Of a stretch of 64,000 bases of DNA, positions 7,557 through 24,363 are shown piece after piece. Below the pieces are notes generated by a model. That model had not been told where the DNA came from and made no database searches. It saw only the letters and a program-made list of their open reading frames with translations. The stretch is from Acidobacteriota bacterium (GTDB lineage: Bacteria > Acidobacteriota > Terriglobia > Acidiferrales > UBA7541), in assembly GCA_003225315.1 (NCBI GenBank), contig QHZD01000028.1, positions 1 through 64,000 on the forward strand. Reading direction: 5' to 3'. Position 1 is the stretch's first letter, and each line of letters begins with the position of its first letter. The position numbers and the translations under genes are program-made.

Positions 7557-7925
7557 GAGACCGTCTCCTTGCTTTTGAAAGAGAGTCGCAACGCTTTATT
7601 GAATAACGATAACCTAAATATCGTTTATCGTCAAGCTGTATATTGATAGTCGATATGCCGGCAGCCAATCAGGCCAGGCGTGGCCTTGTCTCCGCCACCG
7701 GGAAGAATTCCACTTCTTCGATAACCGCGTTTACCAGGATGTGAGTATTGCCCTTACTAGAACTGGCTGTATCGAGTCTTGGTCCTATTTCTTGCCTGTG
7801 AACTCTTAACTTTCGATCGAAGAGCCCGGCCCTGTCGGGACGCGGTCGGGTGCTGAGTCTCTGTCTCTTCCCTTGCCCATGAACTGTTAGCTGTCGACTA
7901 CAAAATCCCAACTCTGGATCGAACC

Positions 7926-8636
7926 ATGAAAAACAAGAAACCGAACGCTGAACTTGTCTGGAAACAATTGGAAGACCACCTCGCCCCGCGCCTGCGCCTG
8001 TCGCTCATCGACCGCACAGTCTATGCGCATCTCCTGCGGCACAGCCGCCTGGAGGGGAAACTCCGCCTTCGGTTTTCGATTCGATGGCTGGCGCGCAATC
8101 TCCGGCTATCCACAGGGCCGGTGCGCCAAGCGGTGCGCCGACTCGTAGCCCAAGGCGCTTTGCGTCTGGTCCAACGGAGCAAAGCGGGGCACGTGGTGGA
8201 GGTGCGGGTGCCTGAGGAGATTCGTCCTGAGAAGCTGGATGGCATCGAGAGCCGGTCCGCTGTCACCGTCAAGGAAGATGGGGCGGGCGCCAGCGCGGCG
8301 ATTAACATCGAGGAGGCAGACTTTCTGCAGAACACGACGCTGCGCAAGGCCATCCACGCGCGCGAGCGCAACCAATGCTTCTACTGTTTGCGCCGGACCA
8401 CGTCCACGGTCCAGTGCCTGGACCACGTCGTGCCGCGGGTGCGGTCAGGGTGCAATTCCTACCGCAACCTGGTCTCGAGTTGCCTCGAATGCAATTCGCA
8501 GAAAGGAGAAAAGGCGGCCGACGATTTTCTCCGCCGCCTCTACCGCGAGGGCCAGTTGAACGCCGCCGAACTCGCCGCCCGCCTTCGCGCCCTCGAGGGC
8601 CTCGCCTCCGGCAAACTGCGCCCTTCCCTGCCTTAG
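7926..8636 (+). CDS. HNH endonuclease domain protein with N-terminal winged-HTH-like region
   Basis: RNQCFYCLRRTTSTVQCLDHVVPRVRSGCNSYRNLVSSCLECNSQKGEKAADDFLRRLYREGQL; N-terminal RLSTGPVRQAVRRLVAQGALRLV. Confidence 0.85.
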   Translation: MKNKKPNAELVWKQLEDHLAPRLRLSLIDRTVYAHLLRHSRLEGKLRLRFSIRWLARNLRLSTGPVRQAVRRLVAQGALRLVQRSKAGHVVEVRVPEEIRPEKLDGIESRSAVTVKEDGAGASAAINIEEADFLQNTTLRKAIHARERNQCFYCLRRTTSTVQCLDHVVPRVRSGCNSYRNLVSSCLECNSQKGEKAADDFLRRLYREGQLNAAELAARLRALEGLASGKLRPSLP

Positions 8637-8703
8637 CTTGTGTAGGGGCGGGCTCTAGCACATCTCCACGGCCCCCCATTGGCAGGTCTGATAATCTAGA
8701 GGC

Positions 8704-8922
8704 ATGAAATTGACAGCCGTTTTTGAACCGGCCAAAGAGGGCGGCTACACCTGCTTCGTGGAAGAGATTCCTGCCGCGATTTCGCAAGGCGAGACCATCG
8801 AAGAGGCCAAAGCAAATCTTGCGGACGCGCTAAAGCTGGCGCTGCAGTGCCAGCGCCAGCTTGCGCTCCGGCGCATTCTGAGTCACGCGGAATACGACGA
8901 GAAGGAGTGGCAAAAACAGTGA
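8704..8922 (+). CDS. HicB-like antitoxin family protein (orphan)
   Basis: MKLTAVFEPAKEGGYTCFVEEIPAAISQGETIEEAKANLADALKLAL. Confidence 0.85.
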   Translation: MKLTAVFEPAKEGGYTCFVEEIPAAISQGETIEEAKANLADALKLALQCQRQLALRRILSHAEYDEKEWQKQ

Positions 8923-9084
8923 TTGAAGTACCCGAAAAATATGCGCTGGAAGCCAGCTCGCCGGCACCGATCACAATACCCTTCTGTCGAGCCGACTTAC
9001 AACGAGGACCAAGCCATGAGACTGCCGCAACCTATCGCCCCAGATCGAATGAGGGGACAAAGTTCTGGTTCACTGCGAATTACC

Positions 9085-10056
9085 CTAGTTGTCTTCGTCT
9101 TCATCCTTGTTCCTCGTTGCGACAAATCCGTGCGTGTGCGATACCCCTGAGGCGTCTTTAGAAACATAGAACCCGACGATGTCGCCCTGCGGGTTGATAC
9201 CGCGTGCTTGCGTCGAAACCACGTCTGCCCCTGGAAAGTCGATGGTAGCGAAGTCGCCCTTTCTGACCAGGAAGCCATGAGTCTTATTCGCAGAATCGAT
9301 GAAGAATCCGACGATTGCGCCGGAGGGATTAACGTCGCGGGCATCCGACGAGATAGAATTCGGAATGTCGAGAAGTTGGTAGTCTCCGTGCTCCACCTTG
9401 TAGGCGTAGAAGGTGGCGGGAGTCGGAAAGACCACGCCGACGATAATCGAGCCGTGCCGAGTGATTCCGTTGTGCATGGTGCCAGGCACGGCGAAGGATT
9501 CGTATGCGCCGTTCAGATATACGTACCCGTGCATTGTGCCTCCACCGGAAACCGCAAAATCGCGACCCTGGTGGTGGTAACAGCCCACGACTTGACCTGT
9601 CGGTGAGATTTTGATTCCGAACGTGTTTTCTGCGTCAGGGAAGTCAATCGCGGTAAAGTTGCCGGACGCATCCCGAAGAAATGCCCGGGTTCGAACGGCG
9701 TCGCCGCCGACGATTGTGCCGTGATCTGTATAAAGTCCAACGACAACACCCTCCGGGTTAATTCCATGAGCTTGAGTAGTGCCGCTGATGCCGCCTGGGT
9801 AGTCAATCGTTGTAAATGTGTCTTCGCTCAAAAGGAAACCGTGGCCCACGCTTCCTACTTGGTAACGGCCAACGATATCACCTTCAGCATTTATGCCTAA
9901 AGCTTGGGTTAAGGTTACACCGGGCAAATCCACGTCGACCGACTTAAAGTTCAGATGGTGTTTAGATCCGGCGAGAGCCGTCCCAAGTGGTACGGCCGAG
10001 CCTGCTACGAACAGGGTTGCCAACATCGTAAACGCCGCTATTCTCAGATTTTTCAT
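9085..10056 (-). CDS. Secreted HAF-type extracellular repeat protein
   Basis: Signal peptide and repeated GINAEGDIVGRY / GINPEGVVVGLY / VNPSGAIVGFF / GINPQGDIVGFY motifs. Confidence 0.85.
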   Translation of the reverse strand: MKNLRIAAFTMLATLFVAGSAVPLGTALAGSKHHLNFKSVDVDLPGVTLTQALGINAEGDIVGRYQVGSVGHGFLLSEDTFTTIDYPGGISGTTQAHGINPEGVVVGLYTDHGTIVGGDAVRTRAFLRDASGNFTAIDFPDAENTFGIKISPTGQVVGCYHHQGRDFAVSGGGTMHGYVYLNGAYESFAVPGTMHNGITRHGSIIVGVVFPTPATFYAYKVEHGDYQLLDIPNSISSDARDVNPSGAIVGFFIDSANKTHGFLVRKGDFATIDFPGADVVSTQARGINPQGDIVGFYVSKDASGVSHTHGFVATRNKDEDEDN

Positions 10057-10349
10057 GTCTTCTCCCTCTCTTTCGATACTGAGAGAAATTTGTGGCCTAC
10101 GCGTGGACAGCTTTTCTGGACGAGGGCCTGGGCTGTGCCGTGGGACGGCAGGCCAGTTGGCTGCATCTTAGCCCTGTCGGCGGGCCTGTCAAGGATGAAA
10201 GATTTTGCGCATCGCTCGTCAAGCTGGTGTTAGTAATACTGACACACATAACGGTCTAACCGCTCGGTTTGCCCCCAAGACTTTAATTAGACTTGCCTGA
10301 ACAACAGCCGGCAGGGTAGAACATTGAGGTTCCTCCCCCGGGCGCCCTT

Positions 10350-10395
10350 CGTTGGCCTTTTTGAAGTGATAATCGTTGGCCGCTTTTGAAGTGAT
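10350..10395. repeat. Direct repeat pair CGTTGGCC(n)TTTTGAAGTGAT, possible mobile-element remnant
   Basis: CGTTGGCCTTTTTGAAGTGAT 10350-10370; CGTTGGCCGCTTTTGAAGTGAT 10374-10395. Confidence 0.5.
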
Positions 10396-10467
10396 CACTG
10401 AGGGCCTACGACTACGGGACCCTAGCTACAGAAAACCGATTGAGTAAGTGCAGTGGAAGGCCCTTAG

Positions 10468-10983
10468 TTAGGGCTTTGCGGGCAGCGGCTGCCAGAGCTC
10501 AATCTTATTGCCATCCAGGTCATAGATCCAGGCAAAGCGACCGTAGGATTCATCCATTCGTTTGGCGTCAATCTTTACTCCCTCTTGTTTTAAGCGGTCG
10601 AGCAAAGCATCCATATCGTCCACGATGTAGTTGATCATGAACGGCGCGGGGCTGGGATCGAAATACTTAGTGGAGGCAGGAAAAACAGTCCAAACTGTAA
10701 CGTGTTCCTTTTGCGGGTCGTCGTGTTGGCGCCACGGAAGCATCGCGCCTTGGCCTTTGTCAGCGAGTCCAAGATGCTTCGAATACCATTCGCGCATCTG
10801 ATCACGATTGGCGGATTTGAAGAAGACACCGCCGATTCCGAGGATGCGCCCGCGCTGCTCCATTTTGACAGGCGGCTTCGACTTTTCCGTTTGCGGAGAT
10901 TGCACTTCCTGTCCTCCTATTGAGTAGGCCGAGATGAGCAACAGCGAGCCGAGCGCAATTGTGCTCCAGGGCATCCTTTGCAT
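10468..10983 (-). CDS. Secreted VOC/glyoxalase-like protein
   Basis: ORF 10468..11049; MQRMPWSTIALGSLLLISAYSIGGQE signal-like; IGGVFFKSANRDQMREWYSKHLGLADKGQGAML...FAWIYDLDGNKIELWQP. Confidence 0.85.
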   Translation of the reverse strand: MQRMPWSTIALGSLLLISAYSIGGQEVQSPQTEKSKPPVKMEQRGRILGIGGVFFKSANRDQMREWYSKHLGLADKGQGAMLPWRQHDDPQKEHVTVWTVFPASTKYFDPSPAPFMINYIVDDMDALLDRLKQEGVKIDAKRMDESYGRFAWIYDLDGNKIELWQPLPAKP

Positions 10984-11435
10984 GTGTGGGTTATACAAGG
11001 TTTCGATTCGGGAGGCAAGGCGGTTCCAGAGCCAACTGGTCACGAACACAACTGGAAAATAGAAAATTAGAAAGTAGAAATTAGAAAAGAGGCAAGAGTA
11101 AAGACCCCTTCGACTACGTCGAAGGATGCGCCACCCGAAGGCGTTTTTTCGGAATTAAGGAGCGGCCACCCGCGGGACCGAGTTCGTGAAAGGAACTCCC
11201 TTCGATGCCGCTTTCCCCCAATACCTAGTCCCGCTCGGGCTCAAAAATTGCGATTCCCAAGAACTTACGGAAAGCGTTGAAGCAGCCGCGCAAAGCCAAG
11301 GCGGCGATAACAGCCCAGAACACTCCCGAGTTGAACTCCCACATTCACCCTCCTCGAATCTTGAGAATCAAAAGTTCGTGAATCCGCTCTAAGTGATGAA
11401 CGCAGTTCCAGACACTCTAGCGAGCACGACTGCCT

Positions 11436-13247
11436 TCATGATTTTGCTGTTGCATTCGCCGCATTTAATTTTCTTGCCTCAGCCAGGTTAATCCTGAACG
11501 TATAACCGTGTTTCTTAAGCAAACCAAGCAACTCAGCTCCGTTGATGAGCGTTATTGGTTCGTTTTGGGCAAAAGCATAGGCATCAGAGCCATACGTGCT
11601 GGTGGTGACTAGTATTCCTTTTGAAGCGCCCTCTTTGTTGACCACAGCGCACAAGTCTCTGACTGCGCTTACATCAACGGTATTTGCGTACCGTTTCGCC
11701 TGGACAATATACTTCCCACCCTTAATGGGGTCGGGATTGAATATGACTGCGTCGACGCCCCTATCTCGACTTGCCTGTGTTACTTTTATCTCCGCTCCCT
11801 CCTGGGCGAACTCTTTTTCAAATAGTTCGGCAATCAGACTTTCAAAATCCTGCCAATCCATTGAGGCAAGATTCGTTTCAGTTCCCAGCTTGTTGAGGAC
11901 TTCTTTTGTCTCAATGAACCTATTGTCTTTCTTGTTTAAAGACATTATCGGGACTATCGGAATAATGTCGATCAATTTGCCAGCAGTTTTGCCTTTCAAG
12001 TTGATAAAAGCCGATAAGGGTTCTAAGCGTTTCAGATTTAGCCTGACTATTTGCTCTTTTTCCGCGACCAACGAGGCGGTATACGTCCTTGTTTTGTTGC
12101 CAGTAGTTGGGTCATCAAATTCGACCCATCCGTTTACCACTAACAGTTTTAGGACATCACATACGTCGTTCCTAAAAACCTCGTAAGCTATCCGCAGAAC
12201 GATAGCTGGATGGATTTTGGGAATGAACTCTTTGGCTTCTTTTTGATTGAGCGGCTTTTTTGCGGTGCTCGCTTTCAATTGGACATTTTTGTAGACAGGC
12301 TGATGCACCACATCGGGCAACCCTATTTCCACGACAGCAATGGCCTGCTCTGTATCAAAATCCAGGTCCCATGTTTTTGGCATGGATGCGGGCAGACTTA
12401 TGTTGCTCAAAATAAGGTTGAGTCTCTCGACCACATCATCTTTCTTTGCGCTTTTGTAACCCGCTAACAGATCCGCGAAGTATTTCTTGTTCTTTTCTGA
12501 TACTAGGACATCAGCATCGAGTTCCTTGTTGTACTCGTCGATTTTCCTGTTGAGTCCTTCGATGGAAGCGTGTTTTGTTTCCGTTGGAAAGCGTGGAACA
12601 TGCCTTGCCTTTCCGTTATGGTTGATTAACTCATGTTCTTTTTCCGCCCAGGTCGTCTGATTTGGCGTCAGAACACCATCGAGAATGTCAACAAACAGCG
12701 CCCCTCTGCCAAGCCTCTTATCGATTTGCGTTACTTTAGAAGGATCGGCTTTCTCTTCCTTCAATTGGCCCAATCTCGTGCTTGCTTCCGAGATATTCGT
12801 TTCGAGGTCCTTCAAGAATTGTTGTCTGTCCGTAAACAGTTTTTCAATTCTCTTCGATAGGGCCAACCAATCGCTGGAAGCGGTTCTTTGCCAAGATGAA
12901 AGATAGGTTCTGCCTGGTCGCAGCGATGGCTCATTTTCCGCTAGGCATATTTCGTTTATGCAATCTCTCGTCTCGTTCTCAATGTGGTAGGTTTGGTATG
13001 AGTGGCGCCCAGAATATCCCGAATAACTATCAGCGCTAAGTTTGTTTTCAAACCGGCTGATAATATCCCTGTTCCTTTCGAATAAATCCTTCGAAAAGTC
13101 GATTTTTCTATTTTGAAACTTCTTACTTCTCTCCTCGCTGAAGTCTTGGTGCTTTTTGATGCCAGTTCGAGCGCTCGAAACACCTTCAGCCACCACCTTT
13201 ACAATGAGCCACACGATTCCTATTAAGATCAGAACAACCCAGCTCAT
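11436..13247 (-). CDS. Membrane-anchored Mrr-family restriction endonuclease-like protein
   Basis: N-terminal TM MSWVVLILIGIVWLIVKVVAEG; C-terminal MDWQDFESLIAELFEKEFAQEGAEIKVTQASRDRGVDAVIFNPDPIKGGKYIVQAKRYANTVDVSAVRDL (D...QAK nuclease motif). Confidence 0.88.
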   Translation of the reverse strand: MSWVVLILIGIVWLIVKVVAEGVSSARTGIKKHQDFSEERSKKFQNRKIDFSKDLFERNRDIISRFENKLSADSYSGYSGRHSYQTYHIENETRDCINEICLAENEPSLRPGRTYLSSWQRTASSDWLALSKRIEKLFTDRQQFLKDLETNISEASTRLGQLKEEKADPSKVTQIDKRLGRGALFVDILDGVLTPNQTTWAEKEHELINHNGKARHVPRFPTETKHASIEGLNRKIDEYNKELDADVLVSEKNKKYFADLLAGYKSAKKDDVVERLNLILSNISLPASMPKTWDLDFDTEQAIAVVEIGLPDVVHQPVYKNVQLKASTAKKPLNQKEAKEFIPKIHPAIVLRIAYEVFRNDVCDVLKLLVVNGWVEFDDPTTGNKTRTYTASLVAEKEQIVRLNLKRLEPLSAFINLKGKTAGKLIDIIPIVPIMSLNKKDNRFIETKEVLNKLGTETNLASMDWQDFESLIAELFEKEFAQEGAEIKVTQASRDRGVDAVIFNPDPIKGGKYIVQAKRYANTVDVSAVRDLCAVVNKEGASKGILVTTSTYGSDAYAFAQNEPITLINGAELLGLLKKHGYTFRINLAEARKLNAANATAKS

Positions 13248-13406
13248 AGATATGTCTTGCTTTTTTTCGCAGGCGATAATTGAAACATAATCATAGTGTA
13301 TAACGGCTTACAGACGCCCGCTATCATAGAGGTACTTCTTCGGTGGATGGCGCATCCTTAACACGCCGAGAGGGCAAGGCTTAATGGAGTATTCAAGCGC
13401 TTGTTT

Positions 13407-13847
13407 TCAGTTCGCCGGAACACTGTGCTGGAAAATTGCCTGCCAGCGTCCCTGCCGTCGAACGTAGTACCGCGTATACCGAGACTGACCGCTGAGGTCG
13501 CGGCCAGCGAATGTGCCTTTGCGAGTTAAGTGACCTGAAACGACGGCTGTTTCCCCGTAGACGCGCACACTAAGTTCATCGAGGTCGAACTTCTCCCAAT
13601 GCACTTGCCCGGATTGGTGCCCCTCGATATTTTCTCGCTTGGTTCGGATTTGCCCTGCTACGTTGATTTCCATGAACTCAGGAGCCAAGACTTCGTCCAG
13701 CTTTGCAATATCGCCCCGCACCTGAGCTTTGCCGCGCTCGCCTTCCAGGTTCTTAATCTCCTCTTCCTGTTGAGATAAGGTTTGCGGATGCGAGGCCATT
13801 GCAACCATAAGAAGGAATGCACCAATCACGGAGATGATGACTCTCAT
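13407..13847 (-). CDS. DUF4440/SnoaL-like (NTF2 fold) protein
   Basis: EIKNLEGERGKAQVRGDIAKLDEVLAPEFMEINVAGQIRTKRENIEGHQSG...VSGHLTRKGTFAGRDLSGQSRYTRYYVRRQGRWQAIFQHSV. Confidence 0.85.
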   Translation of the reverse strand: MRVIISVIGAFLLMVAMASHPQTLSQQEEEIKNLEGERGKAQVRGDIAKLDEVLAPEFMEINVAGQIRTKRENIEGHQSGQVHWEKFDLDELSVRVYGETAVVSGHLTRKGTFAGRDLSGQSRYTRYYVRRQGRWQAIFQHSVPAN

Positions 13848-13984
13848 CGGGACCTCCGTCCGCTGAACAGTGCGAGGGTATGGACGTGAAACTACTCCCG
13901 AGGCTCCGGGCAGTCAACGATTGATTACAGGCAGGCGCGCCGTCGCGGCTGCAAAGGCTTCCGGTCAATTTATTGTTTTAAGCG

Positions 13985-14362
13985 CTATAGGTGCCACTTG
14001 AATGAAGGAGCATCGAATTGTATGCCCACACAATAGCCACCCTTGGGCTGAGGATCACAATAGACGATTCGCGCGTGCTTCGGATATTCGCCCATCAAGG
14101 GGGTAACCAGCGGGACTTCACCGGGCTGCCAGCATCGTTTGCTGAGGACTCGAGCACCGTGGGGACTGACGTCTTCCGTGACCGTGCGTTCGCGAGTCCG
14201 CGGCTCCTCCAAGGTCGCGAGGTAGATCTGAACTGGCAGAGGCTCGCGCCTCTCAATTCTGGCATCGAAACTCTTCAGGCGAGGAATCTTCCGCTGAGCA
14301 ACGCGATAATCCGCTTGCTCGGCTAAACTCTCGACGGGCTCAATTCTTCTTCGAGGTTGCAT
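13985..14362 (-). CDS. PilZ-like domain protein
   Basis: TVTEDVSPHGARVLSKRCWQPGEVPLVTPLMGEYPKHARIVYCDPQPKGGYCVGIQFD; ORF 13985..14482, likely start MQPRRRIEP. Confidence 0.75.
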   Translation of the reverse strand: MQPRRRIEPVESLAEQADYRVAQRKIPRLKSFDARIERREPLPVQIYLATLEEPRTRERTVTEDVSPHGARVLSKRCWQPGEVPLVTPLMGEYPKHARIVYCDPQPKGGYCVGIQFDAPSFKWHL

Positions 14363-14633
14363 GGCCTGCCCTCCGGCACTGATCCTGAAAGCGACGCCTA
14401 AGGGCAAGCGGAAAACTCCCGTCACTGGAATGCTTAAGACCCTTGCTCTGTGGCTATGAATTCGAAGGAATATAGAAAACAATTATCATCAAGCGCGCCG
14501 ACCGGCAAGTCAGGGAAACACTTGAGTTTGCGGCTCGGGTGATCCCTTGAGTGATTACCGTGTCTGGCGCGGTTTTCGGCCGGTTGCCCGACCCGTCCCC
14601 TTGCCTGCCGGGTGGCGCACCGTACGGTTTTCA

Positions 14634-14652
14634 GGAGCGCCTTTTGCGCTCC
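14634..14652. other. Small hairpin GGAGCGC-n5-GCGCTCC
   Basis: 7-bp perfect arms upstream of the Phd/PIN module. Confidence 0.55.
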
Positions 14653-14743
14653 GGATGGATTTGCGGAGGTGCGGCTTTTTGTCCTCTACTTAACCACCTG
14701 CAGGATTAATCGCCATCACAGATCTGCTTGACATCCGTAAAAA

Positions 14744-14767
14744 ATCAGATAATCTGATAATCAGATT
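14744..14767. promoter_or_regulatory. Overlapping palindromes abutting the antitoxin start codon, candidate autoregulatory operator
   Basis: ATCAGAT-A-ATCTGAT (14744-14758) overlaps AATCTGAT-A-ATCAGATT (14751-14767); ATG at 14768. Confidence 0.75.
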
Positions 14768-15040
14768 ATGAAGAAAACGAGCATAAGCGTAACCGAGGCC
14801 GCCCGCAATTTTGCCGATTGCGTGAACCGCGCACACTATCAAAACGTGACGTTTGTGCTTCTTAAGAACGGTGAACCGTTCGCTCGCCTTATGCCGGACA
14901 ACGAGAAAGAGTGCGCCGGACGGGATTTGGCCAAGGCTCTCGCTAAAACGGACCTGCCCGAAAGCGAAGCGAGGGCGTGGCGCCGCGACCTGCAAACCGC
15001 TCGCAGAAGACTCAAGGCTCCGGTTGACAAATGGCGATAA
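14768..15040 (+). CDS. Phd/YefM-like antitoxin
   Basis: MKKTSISVTEAARNFADCVNRAHYQNVTFVLLKNGEPFARLMP; 10-bp overlap with downstream PIN toxin. Confidence 0.88.
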   Translation: MKKTSISVTEAARNFADCVNRAHYQNVTFVLLKNGEPFARLMPDNEKECAGRDLAKALAKTDLPESEARAWRRDLQTARRRLKAPVDKWR

Positions 15041-15432
15041 TTCTCGACGCCGACGTCATCATTCGCGGGGAGAAGGGCACTTTCGACCTACAGAAGTGGG
15101 TGGCTTCCCGTCCCAATGACCAGTTTGAGGTTGCGGCGATCACCGTTGCCGAGCTCTGGCACGGAGTAGAGCGGGCCAGCGGAAAACATAGGGCCACGCG
15201 TGAACGTTATTTGAGGGCGGTCTTGGAGCCTGTGCCGATTATCTCTTATACGGAGCAAACCGCTTATGAACATGCGCGCGTTTGGGCGGACCTGGAGGCT
15301 TCCGGCAAAATGATCGGCTTCTATGACCTGATTGTTGGCGCAACGGCTCTGGAGCGCGGAAGCAAAGTAGCCACGTTCAACAAACGGCACTTTGCTCAAA
15401 TAAAAGGACTCAGTGTCATCGAGCCAAAGTAG
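15031..15432 (+). CDS. VapC-like PIN-domain toxin
   Basis: MAIILDADVIIRGEKG...VAAITVAELWHGVERA...IGFYDLIVGATALERGSKVATFNKRHFAQIKGLSVIEP. Confidence 0.92.
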   Translation: MAIILDADVIIRGEKGTFDLQKWVASRPNDQFEVAAITVAELWHGVERASGKHRATRERYLRAVLEPVPIISYTEQTAYEHARVWADLEASGKMIGFYDLIVGATALERGSKVATFNKRHFAQIKGLSVIEPK

Positions 15433-15539
15433 TTCAGGCAATAGAACAGGCCTTCTCGTCGACAGACGATGACGAGTCGAACTGCCCCAGTTCCCTTCCC
15501 CATGGAGAACTGCTTTGTCCTGCTGTACTCAATCAAACC

Positions 15540-16298
15540 CTAGCCAGGATGGTGTTCCGTTGAATCAACGCTCGGGGACTCGCCGAGGAGATCAGCGAGA
15601 ATCCATGCTGTTCCGGCAATCGCGAAGGTCTCGGCGAATTCGCTCCAATTCGTATGACTGCGGGGATCCGAAAGAAGCAACGGTACCCACACGAGTAGCC
15701 CAAAGATCACAAGCATCATGGTCAGCAGGCGAGCGGCGAGAAGCGCCATTCGATTCGTAAAAAGAGACACAGCCGCGAGTGCGAACGCAACAGTCGTCGT
15801 TACCGCCCAAAACATCTGACTGGGCGGAAGCCACTTCGGAACAAGACTGGCGGTAGCGTGAAGATAAATCGCCTGTTCGAGGGTAAAGGAAGCGACACAC
15901 ATGCCCAGAAGAATGCGGCCGATCCGTTCAAGCGTTTCGCGTGACCATGCCGAGGACAAGCGCGCATAAACGATCGCCGGTCCGGTCACCAGAGAGAACT
16001 GCTCGAAGAAGTTGCCCCAGCTATTGTAGATCCGCGGTGCGGAAACGATTCCTGGCACGCACATCAGGGCGAAGGCAAGATAAACCGCGCCAAGGACGAC
16101 TGCGCCCGCTTTCGCGGTCCGACGGAGCTGAATCGCAGCGCCGCCGAAGATCTGGGCAGCGGCGGCAGCGTAGATAAGGTCACGCGGTTGATGCCAGCCG
16201 TTGTAGTCGTGCCAGACTAGCGTGATGAGGCCAAAGGCCAAAGCCGCCACTCCAAACACATGACGGCCGAGGTTCGAACCAGGCGCCGGTTCGGTCAT
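15540..16298 (-). CDS. Multi-TM membrane protein
   Basis: Several hydrophobic helices in MTEPAPGSNLGRHVFGVAALAFGLITLVWHDYNGWHQPRDLIYAAAAAQIFGGAAIQL... Confidence 0.8.
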   Translation of the reverse strand: MTEPAPGSNLGRHVFGVAALAFGLITLVWHDYNGWHQPRDLIYAAAAAQIFGGAAIQLRRTAKAGAVVLGAVYLAFALMCVPGIVSAPRIYNSWGNFFEQFSLVTGPAIVYARLSSAWSRETLERIGRILLGMCVASFTLEQAIYLHATASLVPKWLPPSQMFWAVTTTVAFALAAVSLFTNRMALLAARLLTMMLVIFGLLVWVPLLLSDPRSHTNWSEFAETFAIAGTAWILADLLGESPSVDSTEHHPG

Positions 16299-16380
16299 TT
16301 GTTTTCAATCCCCGAGATTTTAGTCCAGGAGGAGTGAGAGAGCTTTATATCACAGCCATGGGCTACAGGAGGGGTATGGC

Positions 16381-16520
16381 GTTTTCAGGGTGCAGCATCT
16401 CCCAGATTTATCGTCATCACTGAAACAGCTTTGGGGTTGGGCACGTTTTCTTCCGCTTTGGCATTAGTGAACTTCAGGAATTGGTCGAGGCGCAGGAATT
16501 TGCGGCCCCAGGCGGCGGAA
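16381..16520 (-). pseudogene. Duplicated 3' fragment of the adjacent HD/OB-domain (YhaM-like) gene
   Basis: AWGRKFLRLDQFLKFTNAKAEENVPNPK matches the C-terminus ALGRKFLRLDQFLKSANAKAEENVPNPK of the gene at 17200..18207. Confidence 0.9.
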
Positions 16521-16538
16521 ACGGGGTTAAGATAAGGC

Positions 16539-16781
16539 ATGCAAAACTGGCGAGATCGAATTAGCGTGAATCCGGCCGTTTGCCACGGACGAGCGTGCGT
16601 TCGAGGAACGCGCGTCATGGTTTCCGCCGTAGTTGATAACGTCGCCGCTGGCGTTCCGCGTGATGAGATTCTGCGGAGCTACCCCGCGCTGAAGGAGGCG
16701 GATATCGACGCCGCCCTGGCGTACGCCGCTGAGTTGGCGCGGGAGGGGACCGTGGACCTGCCGCTGGAAACCACAGCTTGA
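16539..16781 (+). CDS. DUF433 domain antitoxin-like protein
   Basis: RISVNPAVCHGRACVRGTRVMVSAVVDNVAAGVPRDEILRSYPALKEADIDAALAYAAELA. Confidence 0.92.
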   Translation: MQNWRDRISVNPAVCHGRACVRGTRVMVSAVVDNVAAGVPRDEILRSYPALKEADIDAALAYAAELAREGTVDLPLETTA

Positions 16782-17134
16782 AGTTCAAAGTCGACGAAAA
16801 CCTGCCGGCGGAACACGCCGCGATGCTTCGCGATGCGGGTCACGAAGCGGACACGGTCGCGGATCAAAGGCTGACTGGATCGGACGACGCGGCGCTATTC
16901 GAACGGTGTCAAGCAGAAGGCAGAATCCTCCTGACGTTGGATCTGGATTTCGGCAGTGTTCAGGCCTATCCGCCAAAATCTCATTTCGGCATTGTCGTAT
17001 TTCGTTCAAGGACTCAAGACAAGCCGACGCTAATTGCCCTGTTGAACCGCCTACTCCCAGTCTTCAGGAATCGATCACCTAAGCAGCAACTCTGGATTGT
17101 CGAGAACGACCGCGTCCGTTATCGCGAAGAGTAG
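16778..17134 (+). CDS. DUF5615 PIN-like toxin
   Basis: MKFKVDENLPAEHAAMLRDAGHEADTVADQRLTGSDDAALFERCQAEGRILLTLDLDFGSVQAYPPKSHFGIVVFR; 4-bp overlap with DUF433 gene. Confidence 0.93.
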   Translation: MKFKVDENLPAEHAAMLRDAGHEADTVADQRLTGSDDAALFERCQAEGRILLTLDLDFGSVQAYPPKSHFGIVVFRSRTQDKPTLIALLNRLLPVFRNRSPKQQLWIVENDRVRYREE

Positions 17135-17199
17135 ACGGCGCGGCGCGGGTGGTGCACGCTACGGTTTTCAGGGTGCGGTTTTCCCTGATTTCATCGCTA

Positions 17200-18207
17200 T
17201 CACTGAAACAGCTTCGGGTTGGGCACGTTTTCTTCCGCTTTGGCATTAGCGGACTTCAAGAACTGGTCGAGGCGGAGGAATTTGCGGCCGAGGGCGCCGC
17301 TGTAGGCGGACCATTCGGGTTCGCCGGAATCGACGGCCAGAGCGGCGCGGGCGGCGGCGAGTTTCGAATCGAGATCGTCGAGATAGTGGAAGACCAGAGC
17401 TTCGCGGATCATGGGCAGCTTCGGCGAGCCGAATTCGTATTGGCCATGGTGGCTGATGAGGAGATGCTGAACGACGGTCTTCAGGTTTGGCGGGAAACCT
17501 TCGATGGCGTCCATGGCTTTGGAGACGGTTTCAAATTCCATCATGATGTGGCCGAGGAGCTGGCCTTCGACGGTGTAGCCGATAGCGCGTTCGTAGCAGA
17601 GTTCGTCGAGCTTGCCGACATCGTGGAGCATCGCCGCGGTGAGAAGAAGATCGACGTCCAGCTCGGGATAGTGCGCGGCAGCTTGCTTGGCGAGCCCGCA
17701 CAAACTGAGGACGTGCTCGATGAGGCCGCCGAGAAACGCATGGTGCATGACTTTGGCGGCGGGGGCGCGCTTGTACTTCGCGGCGACTGCTGGATTCGAA
17801 ATGATGCCGGTGACGAGTTTGTTCAACCAGGGATTAGCGATGGAAGCGGCGAATTCCTGGAGCTGCGCGAAAAGCTTTTCGACATTTTCCTTGGTGTGAG
17901 GCAGAAAATCGGCGAGGTCGATCTCTTCGGGTTTCGCGAGGCGAAGCTGCAGCAGCGCAAGCTGGGGCCTGTTGCGGTAGATTTCAACGCGCGCGTTTAC
18001 CTTGACGAAATCGTCGCGGCTGATGTCCTTGGCAACGACGTCGAATTGATCCCACATGCGCGCTTCGATGGTGCCGCTGCGATCGCCAAGCTCGAGGCGG
18101 AGATAGGGTTTGCCTTCGCGGGTGTTGCGAATTTCTTTTTCGTGAACGAGGAAAAACGTAGTGATGGATTGTTCGGTGTTGAGATCGGTGACGAAAGGCG
18201 TCTTCAT
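17200..18207 (-). CDS. YhaM-like OB-fold/HD-domain 3'-5' exoribonuclease
   Basis: YLRLELGDRSGTIEARMWDQFDVV (OB) and MHHAFLGGLIEHVLSLCGLAKQ...LLTAAMLHDVGKLDEL (HD). Confidence 0.9.
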   Translation of the reverse strand: MKTPFVTDLNTEQSITTFFLVHEKEIRNTREGKPYLRLELGDRSGTIEARMWDQFDVVAKDISRDDFVKVNARVEIYRNRPQLALLQLRLAKPEEIDLADFLPHTKENVEKLFAQLQEFAASIANPWLNKLVTGIISNPAVAAKYKRAPAAKVMHHAFLGGLIEHVLSLCGLAKQAAAHYPELDVDLLLTAAMLHDVGKLDELCYERAIGYTVEGQLLGHIMMEFETVSKAMDAIEGFPPNLKTVVQHLLISHHGQYEFGSPKLPMIREALVFHYLDDLDSKLAAARAALAVDSGEPEWSAYSGALGRKFLRLDQFLKSANAKAEENVPNPKLFQ

Positions 18208-23916: not shown

Positions 23917-24363
23917 ATGAACGTACAAGAACAAATCAAGAAGTATATTACCAGCCAACCGGAGCCAAAACGCAGTGACATGCGAGAGTTGCATCGGCTC
24001 ACACTTCAAGTGTCACCAGAATGCAAATTATGGTTCTTCGATGGTAAAGACAGCAAAAATCATACTGTTTCCAACCCTACGATTGGATATGGATTTCACA
24101 CAATAAAATATGCCAATGGAAAAAGTAGAGAGTTTTTTCACATTGGTGTGAGCGGAAACAAAACCGGAATCTCTGTCTATATTCTTGGTCTCAAAGATAA
24201 GAAGTACTTAGCCAAAACGTATGGAAAAAAACTAGGCAAGGCGAGCGTGACCGGATATTGCATTCGGTTTAAAGCTCTAAAGGATATAAACATCGATACG
24301 CTTGAAGCGGCAATCCGATACGGGCTTGCAGCTCAGAATGAAAAAGGCAAGCTGACGAAATAA
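23917..24363 (+). CDS. DUF1801-like protein
   Basis: MNVQEQIKKYITSQPEPKRSDMRELHRLTLQVSPECKLWFFDGKDSKNHTVSNPTIGYG; locally AT-rich. Confidence 0.75.
   Translation: MNVQEQIKKYITSQPEPKRSDMRELHRLTLQVSPECKLWFFDGKDSKNHTVSNPTIGYGFHTIKYANGKSREFFHIGVSGNKTGISVYILGLKDKKYLAKTYGKKLGKASVTGYCIRFKALKDINIDTLEAAIRYGLAAQNEKGKLTK

Follow-up and report, generated by a model that had tools for sequence, protein, structure and literature searches.

SNIPE, or PD-lambda-1 (Vassallo 2022, PMC9519451; Saxton 2026, PMC13190303), is a nuclease anchored in the membrane that, as described in 2026, cuts phage DNA while it is being injected. It established that bacteria can distinguish phage DNA from their own by location (PMC13190303). 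Its defence is direct and involves no cell death, plasmid transformation is not blocked by it, and a version lacking the membrane helix cuts host DNA (PMC13190303). Zorya and Kiwa also place DNA-targeting defence at the membrane, and both consist of several genes, with motor or lattice proteins among their products (PMC12904381). The gene considered here lies in a 64-kb stretch of acidobacterial DNA (hereafter the window) and resembles SNIPE in being a single gene whose product has a predicted N-terminal membrane helix, a helical middle region and a C-terminal nuclease. The nuclease is, however, of the PD-(D/E)XK Mrr type (Mrr_cat) and not GIY-YIG (MUG113/T5orf172), its conserved core is present in cis, and the protein has neither DUF4041 (Pfam) nor a PADLOC PD-Lambda-1 match; lacking both DUF4041 and GIY-YIG, it is therefore not a SNIPE. 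It shares with Zorya an Mrr-like nuclease, found in ZorD by a weak profile match, but a Pfam scan of its neighbours revealed no adjoining motor or lattice genes, ZorA and ZorB included. Similarly, it has the catalytic domain and D-QxK motif of E. coli Mrr (Mrr_cat, PF04471), to which it adds a membrane anchor, a stalk and the core.

The open reading frame (11436-13247, minus strand) starts with ATG and encodes 603 residues with no internal stops. Full-length homologues of 56-60 % identity exist and a chance reading frame is therefore ruled out. Judged by its sequence, the protein is an assembly of three modules, namely an anchor with its N-module, the core and the Mrr domain, because different N-termini are found on core plus Mrr and the N-module is also fused to Mrr without the core. 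The predicted membrane helix spans residues 4-20 (13188-13238), with a hydropathy of 3.01 on the Kyte-Doolittle scale (17-residue window); no charges precede it and Arg/Lys residues follow, so that an N-out/C-in topology is predicted by the positive-inside rule. The N-module (residues 21-160; 12768-13187) carries the motif RDCINEI..AE and helices at 60-73, 82-103 and 125-165 in the AlphaFold2 model, and it is followed by a variable helical stalk (residues 161-257; 12477-12767), whose length differs between homologues. The conserved core (residues 258-457; 11877-12476) precedes the Mrr_cat nuclease domain (residues 460-576; 11520-11870; Pfam E=2e-30), all of these features being on the minus strand. 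The catalytic motif D499...Q516-A-K518 (11694-11753) is intact, all three residues being identical in 16 of 16 aligned homologues. The AlphaFold2 model (mean pLDDT 78.7) shows long helices spanning 2-44, 82-103, 125-165 and 227-265, followed by an alpha/beta core at 293-396 and the nuclease fold at 465-579. A preliminary description of this DNA had named a single N-terminal transmembrane helix, a long coiled-coil-like middle region and a C-terminal Mrr-type nuclease; the nuclease and the helical nature of the middle region are borne out by these data, and the membrane helix is borne out as a prediction.

The same description had left a domain of about 200 residues unassigned. This holds insofar as profile searches found no Pfam or NCBIfam model for the core, but the region belongs to a described family, since the PADLOC model mREase_IV (PDLC03663), which describes the same core and Mrr domain, matches residues 249-580 (E 1.9e-42; positions 196-526 of the 544 in the profile), excluding the membrane helix and the N-module. 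'Methyl-directed' in the name of that model is a family label. The core can be aligned across 16 diverse proteins. Together with Mrr it makes up a single conserved unit, which occurs in different phyla and carries interchangeable N-termini. Identification of the core with SRA or another known reader was rejected, as a PDB profile search gave no match and a core-only fold search gave nothing at E<=1e-3, the best match being a sex-pheromone precursor (CamS-type) protein at E 0.017. Likewise, the core is not DUF4041, which Pfam does not find in any of the core-bearing proteins. Amongst viral structures, a siphovirus protein without assigned function (A0A8S5QPN9) matches the core at E 2e-4 with a TM score of 0.37. 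A search for related phage genomes in a phage collection gave matches to the Mrr domain only and none to the core. As a separate observation, the functionless PHROG family phrog_38135 (441 positions) matches the core region of one homologue (L028) and may represent a phage-borne core without Mrr.

The N-terminal parts of the homologues differ considerably. The N-module is complete in the close homologues L003-L005, and the membrane helix is kept in L003-L006 and L031, of which L006 and L031 have a different stalk. In roughly three quarters of the homologues no transmembrane helix is predicted, and thus the core-Mrr unit does not need one. In a tree of 39 sequences, built on the core plus the C-terminus, six helix-bearing homologues including the window protein form one clade (support 100/99), with members from the phylum of the window (including a genome of the same class), Uhrbacteria, Adlerbacteria and further metagenome-assembled genomes, two of the lineages being Patescibacteria. 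Presence of the anchor needs at least four changes over this tree, and hydrophobic anchors also occur outside the clade (L029, L035, L008); the membrane anchor is hence recurrent in the family and not universal. Two short relatives of 367 and 350 residues (L012:832-1935 and L015:878-1930) have the N-module, less complete in L015, joined straight to Mrr with the core absent; their motif reads RDC(I/L)(N/Q)(E/D)I, and the membrane helix is also kept in L012. The Listeria cornellensis copy (L009:7695-9290), between gmk and coaBC/priA, is split into two open reading frames, likely by a frameshift or as a pseudogene.

A new observation is that the core also occurs without Mrr, as a gene directly upstream of SNIPE homologues. 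This pairing was counted as three loci. At one of them (L039/L068) the PD-lambda-1 homologue (PADLOC E ~1e-157) begins 37 nt downstream of the core gene, at a second (L122, genome G491) the core gene overlaps a DUF4041/GIY-YIG SNIPE homologue by 4 nt, and at the third, on a Kocuria rosea plasmid (L124), the overlap is 1 nt. A further core with neither Mrr nor SNIPE (L038/L067, genome G356) looks decayed and was left out of the count. The paired SNIPEs fall into two separate lineages of the SNIPE tree, a single clade being rejected (AU p=4e-10), which means that the pairing arose at least twice and argues for a functional link between core and SNIPE. In L122 and L124 the SNIPE has no obvious transmembrane segment and begins with proline-rich repeats. 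The core is not a general SNIPE partner, as most SNIPEs stand alone, and SNIPEs in general can therefore act without it. The main text of the SNIPE paper mentions neither Mrr nor a partner gene (PMC13190303).

Homologues elsewhere are frequently associated with mobile elements. Six of them (L022, L025, L026, L027, L028 and L081) immediately follow an S24/HTH-type prophage repressor on the same strand, and another lies between repressor and integrase (L136). An integrase adjoins the homologue in L060 and L066, a serine recombinase overlaps or adjoins it in L003, L082 and L084 and is found nearby in L004 and L006, and some family members are plasmid-borne. One homologue (L005) is part of a restriction cluster, together with an EcoRI-type methylase, a GmrSD-N/HNH protein and DUF3800. 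These contexts are typical of mobile defence cargo and agree with the earlier view of a stand-alone gene with a probable defence role. Conserved housekeeping surroundings of homologues had been named as counting against that view; the contexts found vary, though several chromosomal copies, that of the window among them, stand alone amid housekeeping genes, and context thus supports defence cargo without proving function. Two further arrangements were noted. On plasmids of Agrobacterium (L083:5844-11113) and Xanthomonas (L085:5993-11092), a relative without a transmembrane helix directly follows a gene for an AAA/SF1-type helicase of about 1150 residues, and the two genes possibly form a two-gene system. 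Prophage-type copies in L028, L081 and L106 adjoin or lie near TcmP-like genes, with DUF5131 also present in L081 (and, by eye, in L028).

In the window, the gene is neighboured by genes for Dus, a glyoxalase-like protein, DUF4440, PilZ, a PpiC/SurA-type protein and Mfd (Pfam). A sister genome (G013) is collinear with the window at 90-98 % identity up to 11051 and from 13345; in place of the intervening segment (11052-13344) it has 2034 bp with a DinB-family gene and another without a family match, the Mrr gene being absent. None of 24 other genomes of the genus that were searched has the full protein (1 of 25 with that of the window), and the core occurs in about 10 of 396 genomes of the phylum. 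The gene had been described as AT-richer than its neighbours, and its GC content (0.450) is indeed the second lowest amongst 54 non-overlapping open reading frames of the window. The gene was likely acquired horizontally. The lowest GC content of these 54 (0.41) is that of a DUF1801 gene (23917-24363), another likely recent arrival. A short element of about 50 nt (11122-11173) recurs at many sites across genomes of the genus. It has a 15-nt inverted match (13345-13359) exactly where collinearity with G013 resumes, and such short repeats possibly mediate cargo exchange. The wider stretch from Dus to Mfd/PpiC (7900-17200) varies within the genus and also carries an HNH gene, a VapC-like PIN gene (15031-15432) and a DUF5615 gene (16778-17134). 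A defence island around the gene was considered and rejected, since PADLOC on 26 open reading frames of the window returned only scattered single-member matches (generic helicase, HNH etc.).

Considering these results together, we regard a role in defence, in some form, as probable. Our main reading, by analogy with SNIPE and with a probability of roughly 50 %, is that the protein is a single-gene, location-based anti-phage nuclease, which would act at the membrane on entering DNA by Mrr chemistry. The N-terminal helix would anchor the protein at the inner membrane with the remainder in the cytoplasm, and the stalk would keep the core and the Mrr domain close to the membrane. The core may serve as a recognition or regulatory module that makes contact with the injection apparatus of the phage or with the DNA coming in, and may license the Mrr domain to cut DNA on entry; self and non-self would be told apart mainly by location, as in SNIPE, rather than by sequence or base modification. 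The preliminary description had likewise suggested that tethering places the nuclease where phage DNA enters. This part gains from the strong SNIPE precedent (PMC13190303) and from the gene pairing with the core, whereas membrane insertion and topology, nuclease activity and action at the point of entry are what we infer. The literature searched contained no phage assay or other experiment on any member of the core-Mrr family.

The main rival is a classic type IV, modification-dependent restriction enzyme, in which the core would read modified bases, Mrr would cut, and the helix would be incidental or improve access. The family label mREase_IV and the existence of relatives without the helix favour such an enzyme, as does the absence of a methyltransferase partner, which had been claimed before and was confirmed by Pfam in the ten proteins scanned (the gene and its surroundings), even though the relative L005 lies near an EcoRI-type methylase. 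In addition, a fold search of the PDB with the whole model gave MspJI and AspBHI as the best matches (E 7e-8 to 5e-6); these superpose badly, however, with TM scores of 0.16-0.28 (0.16-0.22 for MspJI). Moreover, a known modified-base reader domain was not found in the protein by Pfam, PDB profile or core-only fold searches, so the term 'modification-dependent', used in the preliminary description, is not supported by these searches. Modification-dependent restriction also leaves unexplained why a nuclease-less core was independently paired with SNIPE and why the anchor was repeatedly gained or lost, and we consider it rather unlikely.

Two other explanations appear improbable to a similar degree. 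Abortive systems often employ nucleases as effectors, under stress E. coli Mrr damages host DNA, and rexAB-type cargo sits in the prophage immunity region, where copies of the present family are also located; infection or membrane damage could accordingly free the Mrr domain to degrade host and phage DNA, with death of the cell. Such abortive infection fits poorly with a Pfam scan in which an NTPase, a cyclase and a repeat sensor were all absent in cis and next door, and with SNIPE, a functional neighbour, which defends without killing the cell (PMC13190303). Alternatively, the protein might process entering DNA without being aimed at phages, for example as a nuclease directed at plasmids or conjugation or as an enzyme of DNA repair, in keeping with the members on plasmids and beside recombinases and with the chromosomal copies, including that of the window, amid housekeeping genes. 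The patchy spread of the full protein in the genus and of the core in the phylum speaks against a factor of this kind, as do the family members carried by prophages in their lysogeny module and the failure of the partner SNIPE to block plasmid transformation (PMC13190303).

Under the SNIPE-like reading, the results suggest that the location strategy of SNIPE has also been taken up by a nuclease of a second, unrelated type. The core, being common to some SNIPE loci, is a candidate for the recognition part, and both the single-chain and the two-gene forms are small enough for standard phage assays in E. coli. More tentatively, the core may be a portable module of defence at the injection site, used with two nucleases that are not related to each other, in cis with an Mrr domain tethered to the membrane and in trans with the GIY-YIG nuclease of SNIPE. 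If this is true, the core would act as a novel sensor for the injection complex or for DNA entering the cell, and destroying phage DNA on entry by virtue of its location would be a general strategy in which the nucleases are interchangeable.
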